Shown here: piece after piece, positions 52,963 to 60,965 of the stretch
How positions within the stretch are numbered: the first letter of the stretch is position 1
Layout: each line of letters begins with the position of its first letter
Program-made: the position numbers and the translations under genes
The notes under the pieces: generated by a model
The model's input: only the letters and a program-made list of their open reading frames with translations
What the model was told of the DNA's origin: nothing
Database searches by the model: none
Source of the DNA: Chitinophaga filiformis
GTDB taxonomy: Bacteria; Bacteroidota; Bacteroidia; Chitinophagales; Chitinophagaceae
DNA length: 64,000 nt
Direction of reading: 5' to 3'
Assembly: GCF_021646545.1 (NCBI RefSeq)
Contig: NZ_JAKIRP010000010.1
Span: forward strand, 124,001 to 188,000

Positions 52963-53391
52963 CTACTCACGTGTAAAAACAGAAGTCTGACCGAACATGG
53001 GGTTGCCGACGTATCCCCTTATTTCTAATTTCTCGCCTTTAAGCTTCATTTCACTGCTGTACGTTTTACCACTTTTTGGGTCATACACCTCCCCACCAAT
53101 CCATTTGCCATCTTCATATACAAAATCATTTAGAATTACCGTATTCAGCAATGTCCGGCTGCGGAGCTTTGTGTCTTTGTTTTTGCTGTCCTTACGAAGT
53201 GTTTTTCCATCTGGCTCGAACTGATCTTTCATCCAGATCAGTTTACCATAATATTTGTTTCCTCTTTCATAAATTTCCACTTTACCATCCTTTTCCTCAT
53301 TGAACCATTTTCCAACAATAACTTTTCCGGTTTGTGCATTGGCCACCAGGCTAAAAAAAACGCTTACTGTTAATAACGATAATAATTTCAT
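52963..53391 (-). CDS. Secreted DUF2147 protein
   Basis: A 142-residue protein with a signal peptide (FFSLVANAQ). The DUF2147 pattern is clear: VGKWFNEEKDGKVEIYERGNKYYGKLIW, then GGEVYDPKSGKTYSSEMKLKG and LEIRGYVG. The family is lipocalin-like and of unknown function. Its promoter contains an FNR-box-like palindrome at the same distance from the -7 box as in the RND operon, so it is likely a regulon partner. Confidence 0.9.
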   Translation of the reverse strand: MKLLSLLTVSVFFSLVANAQTGKVIVGKWFNEEKDGKVEIYERGNKYYGKLIWMKDQFEPDGKTLRKDSKNKDTKLRSRTLLNTVILNDFVYEDGKWIGGEVYDPKSGKTYSSEMKLKGEKLEIRGYVGNPMFGQTSVFTRE

Positions 53392-53410: not shown

Positions 53411-53458
53411 CAAAGTAAAGAAGGAGTACCCGGGCCTTTTTTAATATAAATTAAAAAA
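53411..53458 (-). promoter_or_regulatory. DUF2147 promoter with Crp/Fnr-like palindrome
   Basis: Minus-strand -7-like box TTACTTTG (53411-53418). The palindrome TTTTTTAAT-ATAA-ATTAAAAAA spans 53437-53458, core TTAAT-N4-ATTAA, centred at 53447.5, which is 36.5 bp from the box edge; if transcription starts about 5 bases after the box this is near -41.5, the class II Crp/Fnr activator position. Confidence 0.65.
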
Positions 53459-53497
53459 TGTGGGAAGCTCCAGCCGGGTAAGTTGTTCATAAACCGG

Positions 53498-54268
53498 CTA
53501 AGGGAAACGGTAGATTAAACGAAGATTCACCATAGGAATCACCCGCCAGTTAACAAGGTCTTCCAGATATGTAGTTACGACAGGCGAGACAGCATCCGAC
53601 AAATCTTGTGTAAATTGACTTGAATGGTTCGAATCTATCCGGGCTGTTGTTTGTATCGTGGCAGAAGCGCCAATCGCTGTTACAACGAAAACCGATTTAC
53701 GCTTGTTTAAAGCAAACTGGTACCCACCCGATACTGATATCTGATGCGCATGAGCAATAGAAGTGATCAGGTAATTGCTGTAAAGATTATTAAACAAAGT
53801 ATTCCTTGCAGCCATATCGGATAAAATTTCTTTGAGCGCCTGACCATCATACACCAACGCATCAATCAGCTCTTTTGAAGACTCTTTGTCAATGACGTAA
53901 TTTAGCTTACTATAGGCAATGTCAACATTGAAATACCTGCTAAAATGCCACCGGATGCCCGCACCATAACCAATTCTACCAGTGAGATGCTGCTTGAGGT
54001 ATTCTTTTGCCGTTTCATTTTCAGTGACAGAAACTTCTACCAGGGGCCTGATGTACTCCCTTGGCGGAAGCCCCAATTGTGCATAAGCTTCAAATACCGG
54101 ACCCTTTGTGAAAATCCAACCAAACTGCAACATGTGCTGCAGCGGAAAAGAAGTTCCGGCATTGATGGTAAAATCAGATGACCTATGTTCCTGACCGGAA
54201 GCTTCGAATGGCAGCAGGTAAACTGCCCCAACCAATAAGGATAACTTACAGGCATGATTTAAATTCAT
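53498..54268 (-). CDS. Outer-membrane beta-barrel protein
   Basis: A 256-residue protein with a signal peptide (LPFEASG) and alternating beta strands: FTINAGTSFPL, GWIFTKGPVFEAYAQLG, GRIGYGAGIRWHFSRYFNVDIAYSKLNYV, ending in a strand LRLIYRFP with the C-terminal aromatic typical of outer-membrane proteins. About 80 residues in the middle are helical. No specific family is recognised. It follows the RND operon's TolC gene by 103 bp and may be co-transcribed. Confidence 0.65.
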   Translation of the reverse strand: MNLNHACKLSLLVGAVYLLPFEASGQEHRSSDFTINAGTSFPLQHMLQFGWIFTKGPVFEAYAQLGLPPREYIRPLVEVSVTENETAKEYLKQHLTGRIGYGAGIRWHFSRYFNVDIAYSKLNYVIDKESSKELIDALVYDGQALKEILSDMAARNTLFNNLYSNYLITSIAHAHQISVSGGYQFALNKRKSVFVVTAIGASATIQTTARIDSNHSSQFTQDLSDAVSPVVTTYLEDLVNWRVIPMVNLRLIYRFP

Positions 54269-54371
54269 GTGTAATGAAATTTGTGTATTCGGTTAATGAA
54301 ATAGGTCGCCCTGTCAATATCCATATTGCAGATATGAGAACCGGTACTTTTGCAGTAACAAGGGCCTGATC

Positions 54372-55718
54372 TTATTGTCCTGTCAGTATTTTTAAGTCGG
54401 AAACCGCTATCAGATAAGACAACTGAGCCGCATACATGTCGGCCTCAGATTTTGCCAATGAAGATTTTGCGTTGAGCAGATCAGTTTTCACATTAAGACC
54501 AGCAGCCTGCTTATCCTCCTGCAGTTTAAACGCTTCCTTCTGATAAAAAAGCGCTTTTTGCGCAACAGCGATCAATGCCTGCGATTGGCTAATCTTCCGG
54601 TAAGCTTTAGCGATATCATTGTCCACCTGCTGTTGTGTATACTGGATATTTTCCTCCGCCTGCTTTAGCTGGAACTGTCTTTGCTTTAATACTTGTTTAT
54701 TAGAAAAGACGTCTTGTACATTCCATTTGAGGTTCACCCCTAAAAATGGGATATGAGAAGGTAATATTGCATTTCCATACTGATAGGAATAGCCGCCAAC
54801 AAGGCCAAAATCGGGGATATTACTTTGTCTGGCTGCTTTGATGCCCAATAAGGCTTTAGATTTACTCAGCTTAGCTATCTGCATATCTGCGTTTGAGTCA
54901 GACGCCGCACTTTTATAACCTTCCAATTGGTCTATTGGCTGGACCTCCGGCTCAATTACTTCCAGTTTTAAAGATTGCGCATTAATACCTGTCAGGTTTA
55001 TTAAGTCTCCCATATAATCCTGTAGCTGAATATTCAATTTGAGGATATTTTGCTCTTCATTGGCAACAGCAGCCTGCAGGCCCGCTTTATCTGCATTGGT
55101 CGTTTTACCTGCCAGTTGTGCATTCTCCAGATCCGTTAGTCTTGAACTGGCTAAAGCCAGCTTTGCTTCCGCTTCCTCCAGCTGCTTTTGTGTTATTAAA
55201 GTTCCGTAGTAAAGCTTATCTATTGCCTGTTTTATTTGCAGGGATATTTTAAATCGCTCTTTTTCTGTCACCGCCATATCAGTCTTATCTATTTCCAGTC
55301 CGGTTTTTATCTTAGCCTGCTGGGTAATAGGCTGGTATGCCAACATTCCAATGGTAAAGTTATTATGCTGGCCTACTTCAAAAGTCTTGTCAGTATTAGG
55401 AAGTAGTGCGGTATTAGTCGGACTGAGCTGCAACTCACCAATGGTACCAGCAGGTATGGTTATTTCTCCCAGGTTAAAATTGTATAAGTAATTGCCGTTC
55501 ACCGTTGCTGAAGGATACTTCCTGATTTCATCTTCTTTGATCTTCGCCTGCTTTTCTTTTATTTGCCATTCCTTGATGGCAAGTGTATGGTTGTTCCTTA
55601 AAGCAGTGGCTTTTAACTGCTCCAGGGAGTACGACTGGCTATCCTGCGCTTTCAGCAAGCTGCAGCAGCAGAGGAAAGCCATGAATAAAAGGGCAAGATG
55701 TTTTATATATTGCTTCAT
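54372..55718 (-). CDS. TolC-family outer-membrane channel (RND operon)
   Basis: A 448-residue outer-membrane efflux protein with signal peptide (FLCCCSLLKAQ), two coiled-coil OEP repeats, and the family ending AGLNVKTDLLNAKSSLAKSEADMYAAQLSYLIAVSDL. It starts 13 bases after the RND pump stop. It is the exit duct of the tripartite pump coded by the four-gene operon. Confidence 0.92.
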   Translation of the reverse strand: MKQYIKHLALLFMAFLCCCSLLKAQDSQSYSLEQLKATALRNNHTLAIKEWQIKEKQAKIKEDEIRKYPSATVNGNYLYNFNLGEITIPAGTIGELQLSPTNTALLPNTDKTFEVGQHNNFTIGMLAYQPITQQAKIKTGLEIDKTDMAVTEKERFKISLQIKQAIDKLYYGTLITQKQLEEAEAKLALASSRLTDLENAQLAGKTTNADKAGLQAAVANEEQNILKLNIQLQDYMGDLINLTGINAQSLKLEVIEPEVQPIDQLEGYKSAASDSNADMQIAKLSKSKALLGIKAARQSNIPDFGLVGGYSYQYGNAILPSHIPFLGVNLKWNVQDVFSNKQVLKQRQFQLKQAEENIQYTQQQVDNDIAKAYRKISQSQALIAVAQKALFYQKEAFKLQEDKQAAGLNVKTDLLNAKSSLAKSEADMYAAQLSYLIAVSDLKILTGQ

Positions 55719-55731
55719 TTCGCTGTTGACT

Positions 55732-58700
55732 TTATTGTTCTACATTAACAGGTTTTGACTTTATTCGGGATATATACATTACCGGAACAGAAAGCAATGC
55801 CATGATCATACTCCATACCACACCAAATGCCAGCACGCTTGCAAGTGGCGCCCACATGGGAGATCCGGATATAATCATTGGCAACACCCCAATAGCCGCC
55901 GCCATTGCTGTAAGGAAGATGGGCCTCAGACGCCTTTTACCCGATTCAATTGCCGCTGCTCTGATATCAAGCCCATGTTTCATCAGTTCATGCGTATGAT
56001 CCACCAGGATGATGGCATTACGGACAACAATACCCGACAGTGCAATCAAACCAACAAAGGCAGTAAAGCTGAAAAAGTTACCTGTAACATACAATCCCAT
56101 GATAGCGCCAAACAGGCTTAATGGTATTGTAAGCATCACAATCAGCACCTCTTTGATATTCCTGAACTGGAACAGCAGAATGAAGAATATCAACACAAGG
56201 CTCACCAATAGTGCAGCTATTAACTGCCCCAGTACTTCTTTCTTATTAAACTCCTCCCCTCCATATTCGATGCGGTATCCATTTGGAAGCGCCAGTTTAT
56301 TTATCGCCGGCTGTATGGCGGCCAGCAACTCGGAGGGCAGTACACCCGGTGCTGTTTCGCTCTGAATAGTAAGCGTCCGTACACCATTACGGTGCATAAT
56401 CCTGCCGGTTTGCCATTGAGGGCTCAAGTCAGCGATCTGCCTTAAAGGCACTGCCGCACCTGTTATCGGAGATTTCAAATAGAGATTCTCCAGATCGTTG
56501 GTTGATTGCCTGCTCTTTTCATCCAGACGTAGCAATATGTTTATCGGATCATTGCCTTCATACATGGTAGAAACAGCTGCGCCACTGAAGCCGGTATACA
56601 CTGACTGAGAGATGCTGGTGGTTGTATAACCTAACCGGCTGGCCTCTTCTTTCAATCTTATGCCGATACCGTAATAATCCTCCGCAAAATCGCTTCTCAC
56701 AAAACGGGCTCCCTTTGTATTCCTGACTATGTTGGTTACATCGGCCCCAATGGCCTTTAAATGATTGATATCCTCGCCAGTGATCCTTACTTCCACAGGC
56801 GCCTTTAAAGCCGATCCCTGCTGCATCAGCTTGACATAAGTGGTACCTTCAGGTACCAGTTCGCCTACTTTGCTGCTTAACTCCCGGGAGAGTTCCTCCG
56901 TGGTTTCTTCCGTAGTGGTATTAATCAGTATCTGCGCATAATTAGATGTGGGAAACTCTGGTGAGAAGTTATAATAAAACCTGGGCGAAGCAGTTCCTGT
57001 AAATGTTGCATATGACACTACACGCTTATCATTCTTCAACAATGCCTCTACCCGCAGGATAGCTTCATTGGTCGTTTCCAGCTTCGTTCCGGTCGGCATC
57101 CACAGTTCTACCACAAACTGGCTTCTTTCTGCTGCCGGGAAAAATTGTTGCCTTACACCCTTTGAAAACAGCAAGCCAGCAAAAATAATCGGCACAAGAC
57201 TGCTGACAATTGTAAGCCGGGGATGTAGTACGCACCAATCCAGCAACGCATTATATCCATCCTGCATCAGATCCAGCACTGATCTTTTTTTCTTCTTTGC
57301 AGGAACATTATCAGTTTCCCCTGTGGTGGCTGGGTGCTGGTGAAGACCTTTCTTAATAAAAGTGTAACAAAGCAATGGCGTCAGCACCATGGCAACGAAA
57401 AATGAAGAAGCGAGGGCCACCGCGACTGTTATGGGCAGGGCGAAAATGAATTCTCCTACAGTACCCCTTAGCAGGATCATTGGCATAAAGGACGCAATAA
57501 TGGTAACTGTTGCTGTCAGTACAGGTATTACCAGATCATTGGCACTACGCCAGGCGGCCGTCCACCTGTCCACACCTTCGTCCAGCAATTCCACATAGTT
57601 GTCTGCAATGACAATAGCATCATCCACCACCATTCCCAATACCAGTATTAACGCGGCCAGGGATACCTGGTGTAACTCAATACCCAATGCATGCATGACG
57701 GCAAATGTTACTGCCACCGTCATGGGAATGGCCATAGCTGCCACCATTGCTATGCGCAGCGGTAGTAATAAAACAACCACAACGATCACAGAAAGGATGG
57801 CCAGGAAGAACTCATGGATAAAATGTGAAATATTTTCATCTACTACGTGTGGCTGGTTAACAATAGTGGTGATCTTAACAGAGGAAGGAATAACCTTTCT
57901 GGCATCTTCAATCTTTTTATTCACATCTTCTCCGAACTTTACAATATTGTTGCCCTCCTGCATCTGAATGGAAAGCATCATCGCCTTATTACCATTTACG
58001 GTAATAATACTCTGCGGCTCCGCATAATCTCTTTTCAGGCTGGCAACATCACCCAGCTTAACTACTGCACCCGACTGGGAAGTACCGACAATCTGGCTGG
58101 CCAGGTCAGTTTCGGTATTATAATAACCATTGGTATACAGCGGCGCCTTGCTGCTGCTGGTTTTCACCTCTCCTGTTGCATTAATGCTATTCTGAGATTG
58201 CAATAACTTTACCACCTGGTCTGTACTTACCCCGTATTGGGAGAGCTTTTCCGAAGTAGACGATACTACAATCTCTTCCTGCTGTTCACCTATTCGTTTT
58301 ATCTTTGAGGCGGCAGGAATAGTTCGCAGATAGTCCTCCAGGCGTTGAGCATACCGCTTTAATTCTTCATAGCTGGCGCTGTTGCTTTCCAACCCGATCA
58401 CCATGGCTTCCGTATCGCCAAAATCTGAATTCACAATGGGCCCTCTTACTCCTTCCGGCAGGTCAATCTGTCTTGAGACGAGCAGTTGATGACGAAGTTT
58501 GCTCCAGAATATATCAGGTTGCTTCACATTCTCTGTAAGTTCCACGTTTACTACAACCACTCCGTCTTTTGTAGTAGAATAGGTTTTAGATTTATCGACC
58601 TCCTCATACTGAAAGAGGTACTGTTCGAGCTTCCTGCTAACCTGGTCTTCCACCTGCACAGAGTTGGCCCCCGGAAAGTATGCAATAACCAATCCCTGCC

Positions 58701-58827
58701 GTATGGTAATCTTAGGATCCTCCCTGCGTGGCATATTGAACAGGGAATTGACACCTATTGCAAAAAGCAATAACAATACAGACAAGGTTACATGCTTATA
58801 CTTTAGTGATGATTTTATAATGTTCAT
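55732..58827 (-). CDS. RND efflux transporter permease
   Basis: A 1031-residue inner-membrane pump of the AcrB/MdtB type (HAE-1/HME-like). It has twelve transmembrane segments and two large periplasmic loops. The proton-relay aspartates occur in TM4 (GMVVDDAIVIADN, about 400-412), and the second half repeats the layout (LSGIVVRNAIILVDHTHELM). It begins 9 bases after the adaptor gene. Exported compounds are unknown; the sequence does not show the Met cluster of copper pumps clearly. Confidence 0.93.
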   Translation of the reverse strand: MNIIKSSLKYKHVTLSVLLLLFAIGVNSLFNMPRREDPKITIRQGLVIAYFPGANSVQVEDQVSRKLEQYLFQYEEVDKSKTYSTTKDGVVVVNVELTENVKQPDIFWSKLRHQLLVSRQIDLPEGVRGPIVNSDFGDTEAMVIGLESNSASYEELKRYAQRLEDYLRTIPAASKIKRIGEQQEEIVVSSTSEKLSQYGVSTDQVVKLLQSQNSINATGEVKTSSSKAPLYTNGYYNTETDLASQIVGTSQSGAVVKLGDVASLKRDYAEPQSIITVNGNKAMMLSIQMQEGNNIVKFGEDVNKKIEDARKVIPSSVKITTIVNQPHVVDENISHFIHEFFLAILSVIVVVVLLLPLRIAMVAAMAIPMTVAVTFAVMHALGIELHQVSLAALILVLGMVVDDAIVIADNYVELLDEGVDRWTAAWRSANDLVIPVLTATVTIIASFMPMILLRGTVGEFIFALPITVAVALASSFFVAMVLTPLLCYTFIKKGLHQHPATTGETDNVPAKKKKRSVLDLMQDGYNALLDWCVLHPRLTIVSSLVPIIFAGLLFSKGVRQQFFPAAERSQFVVELWMPTGTKLETTNEAILRVEALLKNDKRVVSYATFTGTASPRFYYNFSPEFPTSNYAQILINTTTEETTEELSRELSSKVGELVPEGTTYVKLMQQGSALKAPVEVRITGEDINHLKAIGADVTNIVRNTKGARFVRSDFAEDYYGIGIRLKEEASRLGYTTTSISQSVYTGFSGAAVSTMYEGNDPINILLRLDEKSRQSTNDLENLYLKSPITGAAVPLRQIADLSPQWQTGRIMHRNGVRTLTIQSETAPGVLPSELLAAIQPAINKLALPNGYRIEYGGEEFNKKEVLGQLIAALLVSLVLIFFILLFQFRNIKEVLIVMLTIPLSLFGAIMGLYVTGNFFSFTAFVGLIALSGIVVRNAIILVDHTHELMKHGLDIRAAAIESGKRRLRPIFLTAMAAAIGVLPMIISGSPMWAPLASVLAFGVVWSMIMALLSVPVMYISRIKSKPVNVEQ

Positions 58828-58836
58828 TTGCAGTAA

Positions 58837-59874
58837 TTATTTAGTAATAGTGATCAGGGAACCATCAGACAATCTTTTCTGACCGCCGGTAACTACGACC
58901 TCGTTCTCAGAAAGCCCTGATACAATCTCGATCTTGTTGTTCACCATACTTCCCAGACTTACTCTGCGCTGGAATACTTTATTCTGTGCTTTGTCCACCA
59001 CAAAGACAAAGCTCTGATTGGCCAGGTCCTGCTGAATGCATTCGGCAGGCAACAGGATCACCTGTTTATTACTATTAGTAGCAATGCGCGCTTCCGCAAT
59101 CATTCCCGGACGAATTATCAATCCCGGATTCTCTATCCCGATCTTTATTGTAAAAGCCCTGGATGTGGCGTCGGCAGCAGAACCGACCTCCATCACTTTA
59201 CCGGCAAACGTTCTGCCGAGAGATGAAATACTAATGTTTGCAGTCTGACCTATTCTGATTTCATGCAGCTCACCCTCCGGAACATAGGCCAGTACTTTTA
59301 CCGTTTTGATATCAGATACAATAAACAATGGTAAGCCAACGCTTACGATCTCTCCTACTTCTGCCTGTCTTTTTAACAATACACCGCTAACCGGCGAATA
59401 CAAGCGGGTGTCGGACAGGTTTTTCTGCTGTAACTGCTGCTGAAGCTTCGCCTGCTGGAGGTTGAATCCTATTTTAGAAAAGTCACTTTCGCTGAGGCTT
59501 CCCCGGTCATGTAGTATTTTCAGGCGGTTAAATTCATCGTTCGCTGTACTTACCTGAACGTCTGCCAGCCCCTTAGCAATGGAATAACTGGTTGGATCGA
59601 GGCTGGCAATCAATTGCCCCTTGGATATATTATCCCCTTCGTTGTTAGAGATATAATTGATCTTGCCACCAACCATAAAGCCCAACTTTACGGTAGTATT
59701 GCCTTCTATATTTCCACTCACTGAAACTTCACCGGAGATGGTTGTGGGGTGTACTTCCTCAACTTTGACGGCTAAAGGTGAAGAAGTATCTGCGGACGTA
59801 TGTGTTTCTTTATTCTTGCAAGCTGAGAAAAGCAAGATGGCAATCAGTGTAAAATAAAATAGAGATCGTCTCAT
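58837..59874 (-). CDS. RND periplasmic adaptor lipoprotein
   Basis: A 345-residue membrane-fusion protein, lipid-anchored (ILLFSAC, Cys about 19). Domain order: lipoyl half (VKLGFMVGGKINYISNNEGDNISKGQLIASLD), short coiled coil (100-140), second lipoyl half (LYSPVSGVLLKRQAEVGEIVSVG), beta-barrel and membrane-proximal domains. It lies between the FNR-like gene and the pump in one operon. Confidence 0.92.
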   Translation of the reverse strand: MRRSLFYFTLIAILLFSACKNKETHTSADTSSPLAVKVEEVHPTTISGEVSVSGNIEGNTTVKLGFMVGGKINYISNNEGDNISKGQLIASLDPTSYSIAKGLADVQVSTANDEFNRLKILHDRGSLSESDFSKIGFNLQQAKLQQQLQQKNLSDTRLYSPVSGVLLKRQAEVGEIVSVGLPLFIVSDIKTVKVLAYVPEGELHEIRIGQTANISISSLGRTFAGKVMEVGSAADATSRAFTIKIGIENPGLIIRPGMIAEARIATNSNKQVILLPAECIQQDLANQSFVFVVDKAQNKVFQRRVSLGSMVNNKIEIVSGLSENEVVVTGGQKRLSDGSLITITK

Positions 59875-59888
59875 CTTTTTATGTTTTA

Positions 59889-60275
59889 TTATTCTGTGAA
59901 ATATTGTTCTTGTATCGCTACATTTTCTATACCCAGAAAAAGCAGTACCTCTTTGACGTTTGCAGTAAATAACTCGTTACCGGATATAATGAAACTCATT
60001 TGCCGCATGGTGTTTGCATTCAATACTGCTTCAATCTCACTCTGCTGGATAGCCCATTGTCCGGTTGGCCTTTTTGAATAGTAGTATACCAATAACCGCG
60101 TTGGAAAATGCTTTTGGAGAATCTCCAATTCTTTTTGGAACTCGTATGGGTTATCGGCAGAACAATAAAGCAGCGACACATGTGTGTGGCCAGGTTTGGC
60201 AAGCCTGTCTTTTAAAGCAGGATAGATGGAGGCAATGCCTAAATCATCTGCAAAAAATACATAATGAATACCCAT
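59889..60275 (-). CDS. Stand-alone ferredoxin-reductase-like NAD-binding domain
   Basis: A 128-residue protein resembling only the C-terminal NAD(P)-binding half of ferredoxin-NADP reductases: a Rossmann-like strand-helix (YVFFADDLGIASIYPALKDRL), HTHVSLLYCSADNPYEFQKELEIL, and the ending SFIISGNELFTANVKEVLLFLGIENVAIQEQYF that mirrors the usual YICGP...VKEVL...ENIH.E.F close. The FAD-binding half is missing, so it probably does not act as a reductase by itself. It is the first gene of the RND operon, with the FNR-box-like promoter upstream. A redox-linked sensor or partner role is a guess. Confidence 0.65.
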   Translation of the reverse strand: MGIHYVFFADDLGIASIYPALKDRLAKPGHTHVSLLYCSADNPYEFQKELEILQKHFPTRLLVYYYSKRPTGQWAIQQSEIEAVLNANTMRQMSFIISGNELFTANVKEVLLFLGIENVAIQEQYFTE

Positions 60276-60313
60276 TCCTCATATAGCTTTTGTATTGATT
60301 AATAATTACAATG

Positions 60314-60359
60314 CAAAGCAAAGAAAGAAGTGCGGGACCACTTTTAATCTATATTAAAA
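60314..60359 (-). promoter_or_regulatory. RND-operon promoter with Crp/Fnr-like palindrome
   Basis: Minus-strand -7-like box TTGCTTTG (60314-60321) and palindrome TTTTAAT-CTAT-ATTAAAA (60342-60359), centre 60350.5, again 36.5 bp from the box edge as at 53411-53458. The 130-bp gap between the operon and the Crp/Fnr gene holds only this promoter. Confidence 0.65.
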
Positions 60360-60404: not shown

Positions 60405-60965
60405 CTAATATTTAGCTCTTATAACGCTTAGCGTTTGTTGGGTAATACCGAGGTAAGAGGCGATATGTCCGAGTGGGGCTCTTGACAGTATATTTGAATA
60501 ATTATCCATCATAAACTTATAACGTTGCTCCGCCGTCTGGAACTGCAACGAATATAATTTGTCGGAGAACAGTTTCAGGAATTCAATGGCTACCATAAGG
60601 CCCAGCTGCTTAAATGCTCCTATTTCTTCGAGCAATGCATTAAAGTCCCTGAATAGGATTACTCTTAATGTTGTATGCTCCAGTACTTCTCTGCCATATG
60701 GGTCTACCCGGTTAAAATAAACATTATCCAGGGACAGACTAAACTTGTTCTCATCGAAGAAAAAATGCGTAATGTCTTTTCCGTTCTTATTATAAAACGT
60801 CCGGATCAGGCCCTTCTCTACAAAGAAGACTTTTTGGGAATTATTGTCGGGATGCATTAAAATGGTTCCCTTAGGATATGTCTCCGTTTTAAAGGCAGCA
60901 TCAATGATAGCACTTTCCTCTTCGCTAAGTTTCACTTTAGTGTTGATATACTGGATCAGTTCCAT
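60405..60965 (-). CDS. Crp/Fnr-family transcriptional regulator
   Basis: A 186-residue regulator. Residues 10-125 are a cyclic-nucleotide-binding-type beta-roll (YPKGTILMHPDNNSQKVFFVEKGLIRTFY) without the Arg-Ser pair needed for cAMP contact; there is no Fe-S cysteine cluster. The C-terminal helix-turn-helix is short: IASYLGITQQTLSVIRAKY. It stands directly upstream of the RND operon in the same orientation, and FNR-box-like sites occur in that operon's promoter and at the DUF2147 promoter. A minus-strand TATCTTTA at 60983-60990 may be its -7 box. Confidence 0.88.
   Translation of the reverse strand: MELIQYINTKVKLSEEESAIIDAAFKTETYPKGTILMHPDNNSQKVFFVEKGLIRTFYNKNGKDITHFFFDENKFSLSLDNVYFNRVDPYGREVLEHTTLRVILFRDFNALLEEIGAFKQLGLMVAIEFLKLFSDKLYSLQFQTAEQRYKFMMDNYSNILSRAPLGHIASYLGITQQTLSVIRAKY

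Follow-up and report, generated by a model that had tools for sequence, protein, structure and literature searches.

CRP and FNR dimers touch the polymerase at class II promoters, where their sites are centred at -41.5, and PrfA, another protein with the Crp/Fnr fold, has the box TTAACA-N2-TGTTAA. The window analysed here (64,000 nucleotides of Chitinophaga filiformis, contig NZ_JAKIRP010000010.1, positions 124,001 to 188,000) encodes a Crp/Fnr-type regulator together with two TTAA-type palindromes, one in front of an RND efflux pump operon and the other in front of a DUF2147 gene. The regulator is very probably a local class II activator that binds both sites and activates both promoters directly; it would then be a Crp/Fnr activator with a TTAA-type box, a kind already known.

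Membership of the Crp/Fnr superfamily is indicated by a profile alignment to FNR-type structures (E from 7e-13) that extends through the helix-turn-helix; the Pfam cNMP_binding match (E 2.9e-5, 24.4 bits) is under the cut-off of 27.5. The nearest solved structure, 3dn7 (a cyclic nucleotide binding regulatory protein; profile E 7.4e-27), matches over nearly the full length and differs in its helix, PEYLSE. No cyclic AMP-binding motif was seen by eye in the regulator alignment. FNR (TTGATnnnnATCAA) shares with the regulator the superfamily, the site layout TTnA-N6-TnAA and, as predicted here, the position relative to the transcription start. Unlike FNR, the regulator has no cysteine among its 186 residues and therefore is not an oxygen-sensing FNR with an iron-sulphur cluster; its helix has Q/S/V where FNR has E209/S212/R213, its half-site is TTAAT instead of TTGAT, and its targets appear local rather than a global regulon, as far as genome motif scans show. 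The palindromes, called FNR-box-like in the preliminary description, resemble FNR sites in layout and have TTAA in place of TTGA. The CRP half-site TGTGA also differs from the TTTAA found here, and PrfA, a Firmicute protein that controls other genes, resembles the regulator in its TTAA-N6-TTAA site. NssR of Campylobacter and HcpR2 are FNR family proteins in which E181 is replaced (by Q or P) and the boxes are TTAAC or GTAAC, a residue-base logic common with the window clade; their boxes (TTAACnnnnGTTAA and GTAACnnnnGTTAC) and targets (nitrogen-oxide stress or hcp) are different (PMC1274295, in the part available). In the window clade the boxes read TTAA(T/G), position 185 is V and most targets are efflux genes.

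Palindromes at a fixed distance from the -7 box

The regulator, the sites and the promoter boxes are as follows.

60405-60965, minus strand: Crp/Fnr-type regulator, 186 residues, no cysteine, recognition helix ITQQTLSVIR
60342-60359, no strand: palindrome 2 (TTTTAATCTATATTAAAA), predicted operator of the pump operon, centre 60350.5
60314-60321, minus strand: -7 box TTGCTTTG, G at 60314, 36.5 bp from the centre of palindrome 2, predicted start about 60309
53439-53456, no strand: palindrome 1 (TTTTAATATAAATTAAAA), predicted operator of the DUF2147 promoter, centre 53447.5
53411-53418, minus strand: -7 box TTACTTTG, G at 53411, 36.5 bp from the centre of palindrome 1, predicted start about 53406

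Both palindromes and both TTTG boxes lie where the preliminary description had placed them (its 53437-53458 is palindrome 1 plus two further A/T pairs), both half-sites read TTTAA, i.e. the TTAAT type, and each palindrome centre is exactly 36.5 bp away from the G of its box. The DUF2147 promoter is about seven kilobases from the regulator's own downstream promoter. In Flavobacterium psychrophilum the TAnnTTTG box was mapped to -12 to -5 (PMC9723704, in the part available); with the boxes of the window placed likewise, the 36.5 bp to the box G put the palindrome centres at -41.5 from the predicted starts.

The spacing recurs among relatives. Regulators were grouped by the residues at the positions of FNR E209 and R213, those with glutamine and valine being termed Q+V and those that retain the FNR residues E+R. 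Behind 50 of 60 distinct Q+V regulators a palindrome with at most two mismatches lies within 400 bp, sometimes in two or three copies (C. tropicalis L051/L116 has three at 58-bp steps, two of them with one mismatch), and TTTG stands at exactly 36.5 bp from it in 46 of the 60. The offset 31.5 was found in nine and every remaining offset in at most one; in the sequences inspected, 31.5 is the first TTTG of TTTGCTTTG-like repeats. Counted by site, TTTG at 36.5 accompanies 37 of 40 Q+V palindromes and 34 of 50 E+R palindromes, other E+R offsets occurring at most once. The 46 Q+V promoters, selected because they combine TTTG at 36.5 with a site of no more than two mismatches, were merged into 31 non-redundant ones, among which no column from +10.5 to +32.5 reached 60%; therefore the length of the spacer, not its sequence, is kept. 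The E+R promoters (30 merged into 29) have two conserved spacer columns, +30.5 and +32.5. TTG was present in the -33 area of three of the 31 Q+V promoters, about chance level by our own estimate, which fits dependence on an activator.

Crp/Fnr-like matches were found in all 79 genomes of the genus and clear relatives of the regulator (40-94% identical) in about a dozen. The 54 named loci with relatives (41-94% identical, one at 40%; a 55th match, a short fragment, was left out) belong to Chitinophaga, Mucilaginibacter, Sphingobacterium, Larkinella, Spirosoma, Dyadobacter, Flectobacillus, Runella, Chryseobacterium, Capnocytophaga and others, the closest being Chitinophaga sp. CF418 (94%), with C. 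filiformis DSM 527 at 89%, and a pump follows the regulator in 28 of the 54 (hand count). The footprinting proposed in the preliminary description thus found the palindrome and its 36.5-bp spacing kept in orthologous loci of many Bacteroidota genera. One locus (L126:1-3698) has a 431-residue open reading frame (ORF), transposase-like by eye, between the regulator and its palindrome at +1799.

In the genome of 9,065,853 bases the exact 18-mer TTTTAAT-N4-ATTAAAA occurs at three places, two of them at this locus, with none for the reversed control, so the exact site is not widespread at random; had it been, this would have spoken against the preliminary description. With two mismatches the 18-mer is ordinary (143 places, reversed control 119; in the window 3 against 0.76 expected, with 3 of 100 shuffles reaching 3); therefore only the exact 18-mer combined with the promoter spacing is informative, and the bare palindrome was rejected as a genome-wide regulon marker. 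The composite TTTAA-N6-TTAAA-N25-TTTG has three exact matches (control 0), and 25 with up to one mismatch (control 6). The exact composites do not include the third exact 18-mer (L003), which begins 60 bp downstream of an ORF; the complete ORFs listed for its 3-kb locus (those running off the end are not among them) include none of at least 90 residues behind the site. The third exact composite (C11:251163-251207) adjoins a paralogue of the regulator (C11:251218-251742; 35% identical, helix QQYLSN) whose 3′ end carries a near-identical palindrome, with TTTG 36.5 bp away. The whole stretch (C11:251163-251742; L062, L152) precedes a 198-residue ORF, and L261 has a sister arrangement. Among 12 one-mismatch 18-mers, the one at C11:251191 was examined further. 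No ORF of 80 residues starts within 200 bp behind 14 of the 22 one-mismatch composites; three of the other eight (L153, L163, L164) fall inside another ORF of at least 100 residues, leaving L156, L160, L166, L170 and L172 as loose candidates, with the mismatch in TTTG itself in L160 and L166.

The exact composite has 72 matches across the genus against 28 for the control (hand count), in 42 of 79 genomes; this set was rejected as a clean regulon since it mixes several regulator families, e.g. TTTAACCTGGGTTAAA. Several genomes of the genus also share a second site family, TTTAAC..GTTAAA, again with TTTG at 36.5; in L187 and L196 it follows Crp/Fnr proteins with helix GPSLSR. The 34 Crp/Fnr-like matches of the C. 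filiformis genome include duplicate contigs or fragments: matches with identical scores are paired between contigs C22/C23, C13/C15 and C12/C14, and four pairs (L080/L081, L082/L083, L087/L088, L091/L092) have identical C-termini as far as shown. The assembly, for which contamination is given as 6.22, probably holds duplicated stretches.

Recognition helix and half-site base

Profile alignment places ...YLGITQQTLSV... of the regulator on ...YLGLTVETISR... of FNR-type proteins, which gives the Q/S/V correspondence. The relation of helix to half-site was examined in 188 distinct Crp/Fnr proteins, obtained by collapsing 209 ORFs with identical last 150 residues from loci L016-L045, L066-L148, L175-L203 and L234-L313 (L001-L015, L046-L065, L149-L174 and L204-L233 were left unscanned for regulators). 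The sources were 30 of the genome's own 34 matches, 30 genus loci, the 54 named loci, 78 further places of the genus list and the loci of the genus composite scan. Helix columns rest on a MAFFT alignment; the training set left out L090 (no helix), L089 (no tblastn hit) and L037 and L041 (wrong helix match), and seven loci duplicating named ones were left out of site inspection. Palindromes TTnA-N6-TnAA with any n were counted in the 330 bp behind each gene, so that one regulator may have two letters.

Behind the 74 E+R regulators the variable base was G in 54, A in three (all three also with TTGA) and T in one, with no palindrome in 20; behind the 60 Q+V regulators it was A in 38, G in one and T in one, with none in 21. 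The 41 regulators that keep R and have lost E gave four A, one G and 36 none, and the 13 that have lost R otherwise gave six A, three T and four none. Shuffled regions yielded about one or two per letter in each large class. When TTTG at 36.5 was required (86 regulators), agreement was complete in the large classes, with TTGA for 36 of 36 E+R and TTAA for 37 of 37 Q+V regulators; the regulators without R otherwise gave five A and three T, and those without E four A and one G. Clustering at 60% identity left 19 Q+V clusters (13 A, six none) and 29 E+R clusters (11 G, one both, one T, 16 none). Fisher values for these tables treat rows as independent, which the rows are not. A correlation of the same kind has been published for CRP/FNR residues 180/181, including the TTAACnnnnGTTAA box with A180/Q181 (PMC1274295, in the part available). 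The rule is consistent and matches that correlation, but its independent support is modest. Regulators with helix QQSLSR (L074, L170) seem, by eye, to be paired with TTTACCA..TGGTAAA-like palindromes, which suggests that base 4 of the half-site follows the helix too.

Proposed activation and its alternatives

A dimer of the regulator would bind TTTTTAA-N6-TTAAAAA, centred at about -41.5, so that the downstream half of the palindrome would replace the -33 element and the bound protein would bring sigma-A polymerase to the TTTG -7 box. Activation would occur at two promoters, one in front of the NAD-domain and RND pump genes, just behind the regulator gene, and the other seven kilobases away, at DUF2147, and Gln and Val in place of FNR Glu209 and Arg213 would give the half-site TTAAT instead of TTGAT. 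The preliminary description proposed that the neighbouring Crp/Fnr protein activates these promoters directly, in class II fashion; this is favoured by the palindrome and 36.5-bp spacing conserved in many genera, by the agreement of recognition helix and third base among the 188 distinct relatives, and by the place of DUF2147 immediately after TolC in six loci of the genus.

Several observations count against this account or narrow its support. No 36.5 arrangement lies within 400 bp of 14 of the 60 Q+V regulators: in L098, L020/L107, L126 and L131 it is at or beyond the 400-bp limit, L117 and L118 share a site, which lies upstream (and in L117 faces the opposite way), and in eight (L099, two in L121, L128, L132, L134, L137, L144) none was found. 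The 188 proteins are mostly best matches to the window regulator, not a random sample; on their tree only four base changes are needed, with one independent pair on well supported branches and three on all, and with so few pairs the residue-base agreement is not significant by an independent-pairs test. Of the 30 DUF2147 loci examined, taken from a longer match list, four have a site near -54 with no more than one mismatch, three of them with TTTA and not TTTG; the pump directly precedes DUF2147 in six, and 20 show neither site nor pump. Footprinting of the DUF2147 promoter was accordingly rejected as strong independent proof.

A site overlapping the -33 region could also repress, and pump operons are often controlled by repressors. 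Yet a regulator that binds the sites and mainly represses, being released by a toxic compound as many pump regulators are, is unlikely: a repressor needs no fixed phase, whereas the distance of 36.5 bp to the -7 box is fixed in many genera, as fits an activator, and so does the missing sign of a -33 TTG in all but three of 31 promoters. It is also distinctly improbable that one of the 33 other Crp/Fnr-like matches in the genome, which include duplicates, is the true regulator or that several share the sites. Cross-talk is conceivable with the QQYLSN paralogue on C11, whose near-identical palindrome has equal spacing, but the site accompanies orthologues of the neighbouring regulator across genera, and 74 of the 128 regulators outside the Q+V group have E+R helices, with TTGA-type sites. 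A terminator role for the palindrome behind the regulator gene, with the DUF2147 copy as a coincidence, is hardly credible, even though the site is a T/A-rich inverted repeat whose first copy begins 26-60 bp behind the regulator coding match in 12 orthologous loci (L046-L057), since there is no G-C stem, neither site appears in a terminator scan, the phase to the -7 box is fixed, the half-site base goes with the recognition helix, and no regulator gene precedes the copies at DUF2147 and in Dyadobacter.

Probable target genes, possible ligand and family

The genes of the locus, among them those predicted to be activated by the regulator, are on the minus strand, as is the regulator gene; from right to left the order is regulator, palindrome, NAD-domain-like gene, adaptor, RND permease, TolC, beta-barrel-like gene, palindrome and DUF2147.

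59889-60275, minus strand: small NAD-binding-domain-like protein, 128 residues, first gene behind the pump promoter
58837-59874, minus strand: periplasmic adaptor of the RND pump (RND_mfp)
55732-58827, minus strand: RND efflux permease (ACR_tran)
54372-55718, minus strand: TolC-type outer membrane channel (OEP)
53498-54268, minus strand: 256-residue protein, outer-membrane-barrel-like only below cut-off (OMP_b-brl 17.4 bits, cut-off 28.7)
52963-53391, minus strand: DUF2147 protein (Pfam E 2.3e-31)

The NAD-domain label is weak (Pfam NAD_binding_1 21.3 bits, cut-off 22), as are the PDB matches of this protein, two reductases among them. The DUF2147 protein matches the Helicobacter pylori HP1028 structure 4inn weakly (E 6.9e-4, ranked ninth), behind eight WD-40-repeat proteins that match residues 57-84 only; the work cited as reference 41 in PMC9570263 (in the part available) has a title that describes HP1028 as a lipocalin.

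The preliminary description had joined the pump, the NAD-domain protein and DUF2147 in one regulon. This is borne out in part by six loci of the genus (L052-L057) in which regulator, adaptor, permease, TolC and DUF2147 stand in a row, without the NAD-domain gene; five are close copies of one another, representing about two lineages, and the L056 site has two mismatches. However, the locus contains no DUF2147 and no beta-barrel gene in the window's three nearest relatives (L047-L049, regulator 87-94% identical), and the regulon is therefore not one fixed set. In Dyadobacter endophyticus (L112) a homologue of the beta-barrel-like protein (53%) is divergent to the regulator and has its own site (one mismatch) with TTTG at 36.5. 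In three loci without the pump (L104:10645-10974, L112, L027) the site is followed by a 110-residue secreted-looking protein, DUF2147-like by eye; the L104 protein has no Pfam match. In L101:2318-3538 a protein with a PycTM (Pycsar effector) domain is encoded between regulator and pump operon.

Fatty acids are substrates of P450-BM3 and MCRA proteins. Orthologous regulators and their sites are followed by genes for a P450-BM3-like fusion protein (L130:10652-13810), for an MCRA (oleate hydratase family) protein together with a 3-hydroxyacyl-CoA dehydrogenase (L141:10657-13188) and, in Capnocytophaga (L139), for an ABC-2 type tripartite exporter. As a first guess from these few and distant target genes (their regulators are 42-45% identical to that of the window), the inducer may be a hydrophobic amphiphile or a fatty acid; other first genes, for an alpha/beta hydrolase (L113) and an epimerase-like protein (L142), do not favour lipids. 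A cyclic nucleotide is also a possible ligand, given a Guanylate_cyc-match gene in L111 (10656-11744) between regulator and NAD-domain gene and between two site copies. L107 (10652-11727) has two ORFs in place of this gene, and L110 a similar gap with two sites. In C. tropicalis (L312:4057-5142) a gene alike by eye to that of L111 precedes a further site copy, near a short regulator fragment (L149).

The principle of a residue-base rule is not new, having been published for positions 180/181 (PMC1274295, in the part available). No report of its extension to position 185 and to a fixed spacing in Bacteroidota, or of the regulator-pump-DUF2147 unit, was found in literature searches limited to open-licence papers. 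A 2013 article by Matsui et al., by its title on the CRP/FNR superfamily and motifs, may contain part of the rule for position 185 and spacing.

It is a tentative possibility, with the odds rather against it, that Bacteroidota have a large decodable set of one-operon Crp/Fnr switches, including the window clade as a sensor of fatty acids or amphiphiles. If so, each regulator gene would have its own palindrome behind it, at -41.5, the operator would be predictable from helix residues 181 and 185 (CRP numbering), and the targets of many orphan regulators could be read from genome sequence. The window clade would control efflux (RND; ABC-2 in Capnocytophaga) and a lipocalin-like secreted protein, to which the targets of distant relatives would add an oleate hydratase family protein and a P450-BM3-like hydroxylase. 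The efflux pump, the beta-barrel-like protein and DUF2147 would be joined as one testable unit, and for environmental Bacteroidota, which have many Crp/Fnr-like proteins without assigned targets, a fixed-position operator and a two-residue rule would permit promoter prediction.

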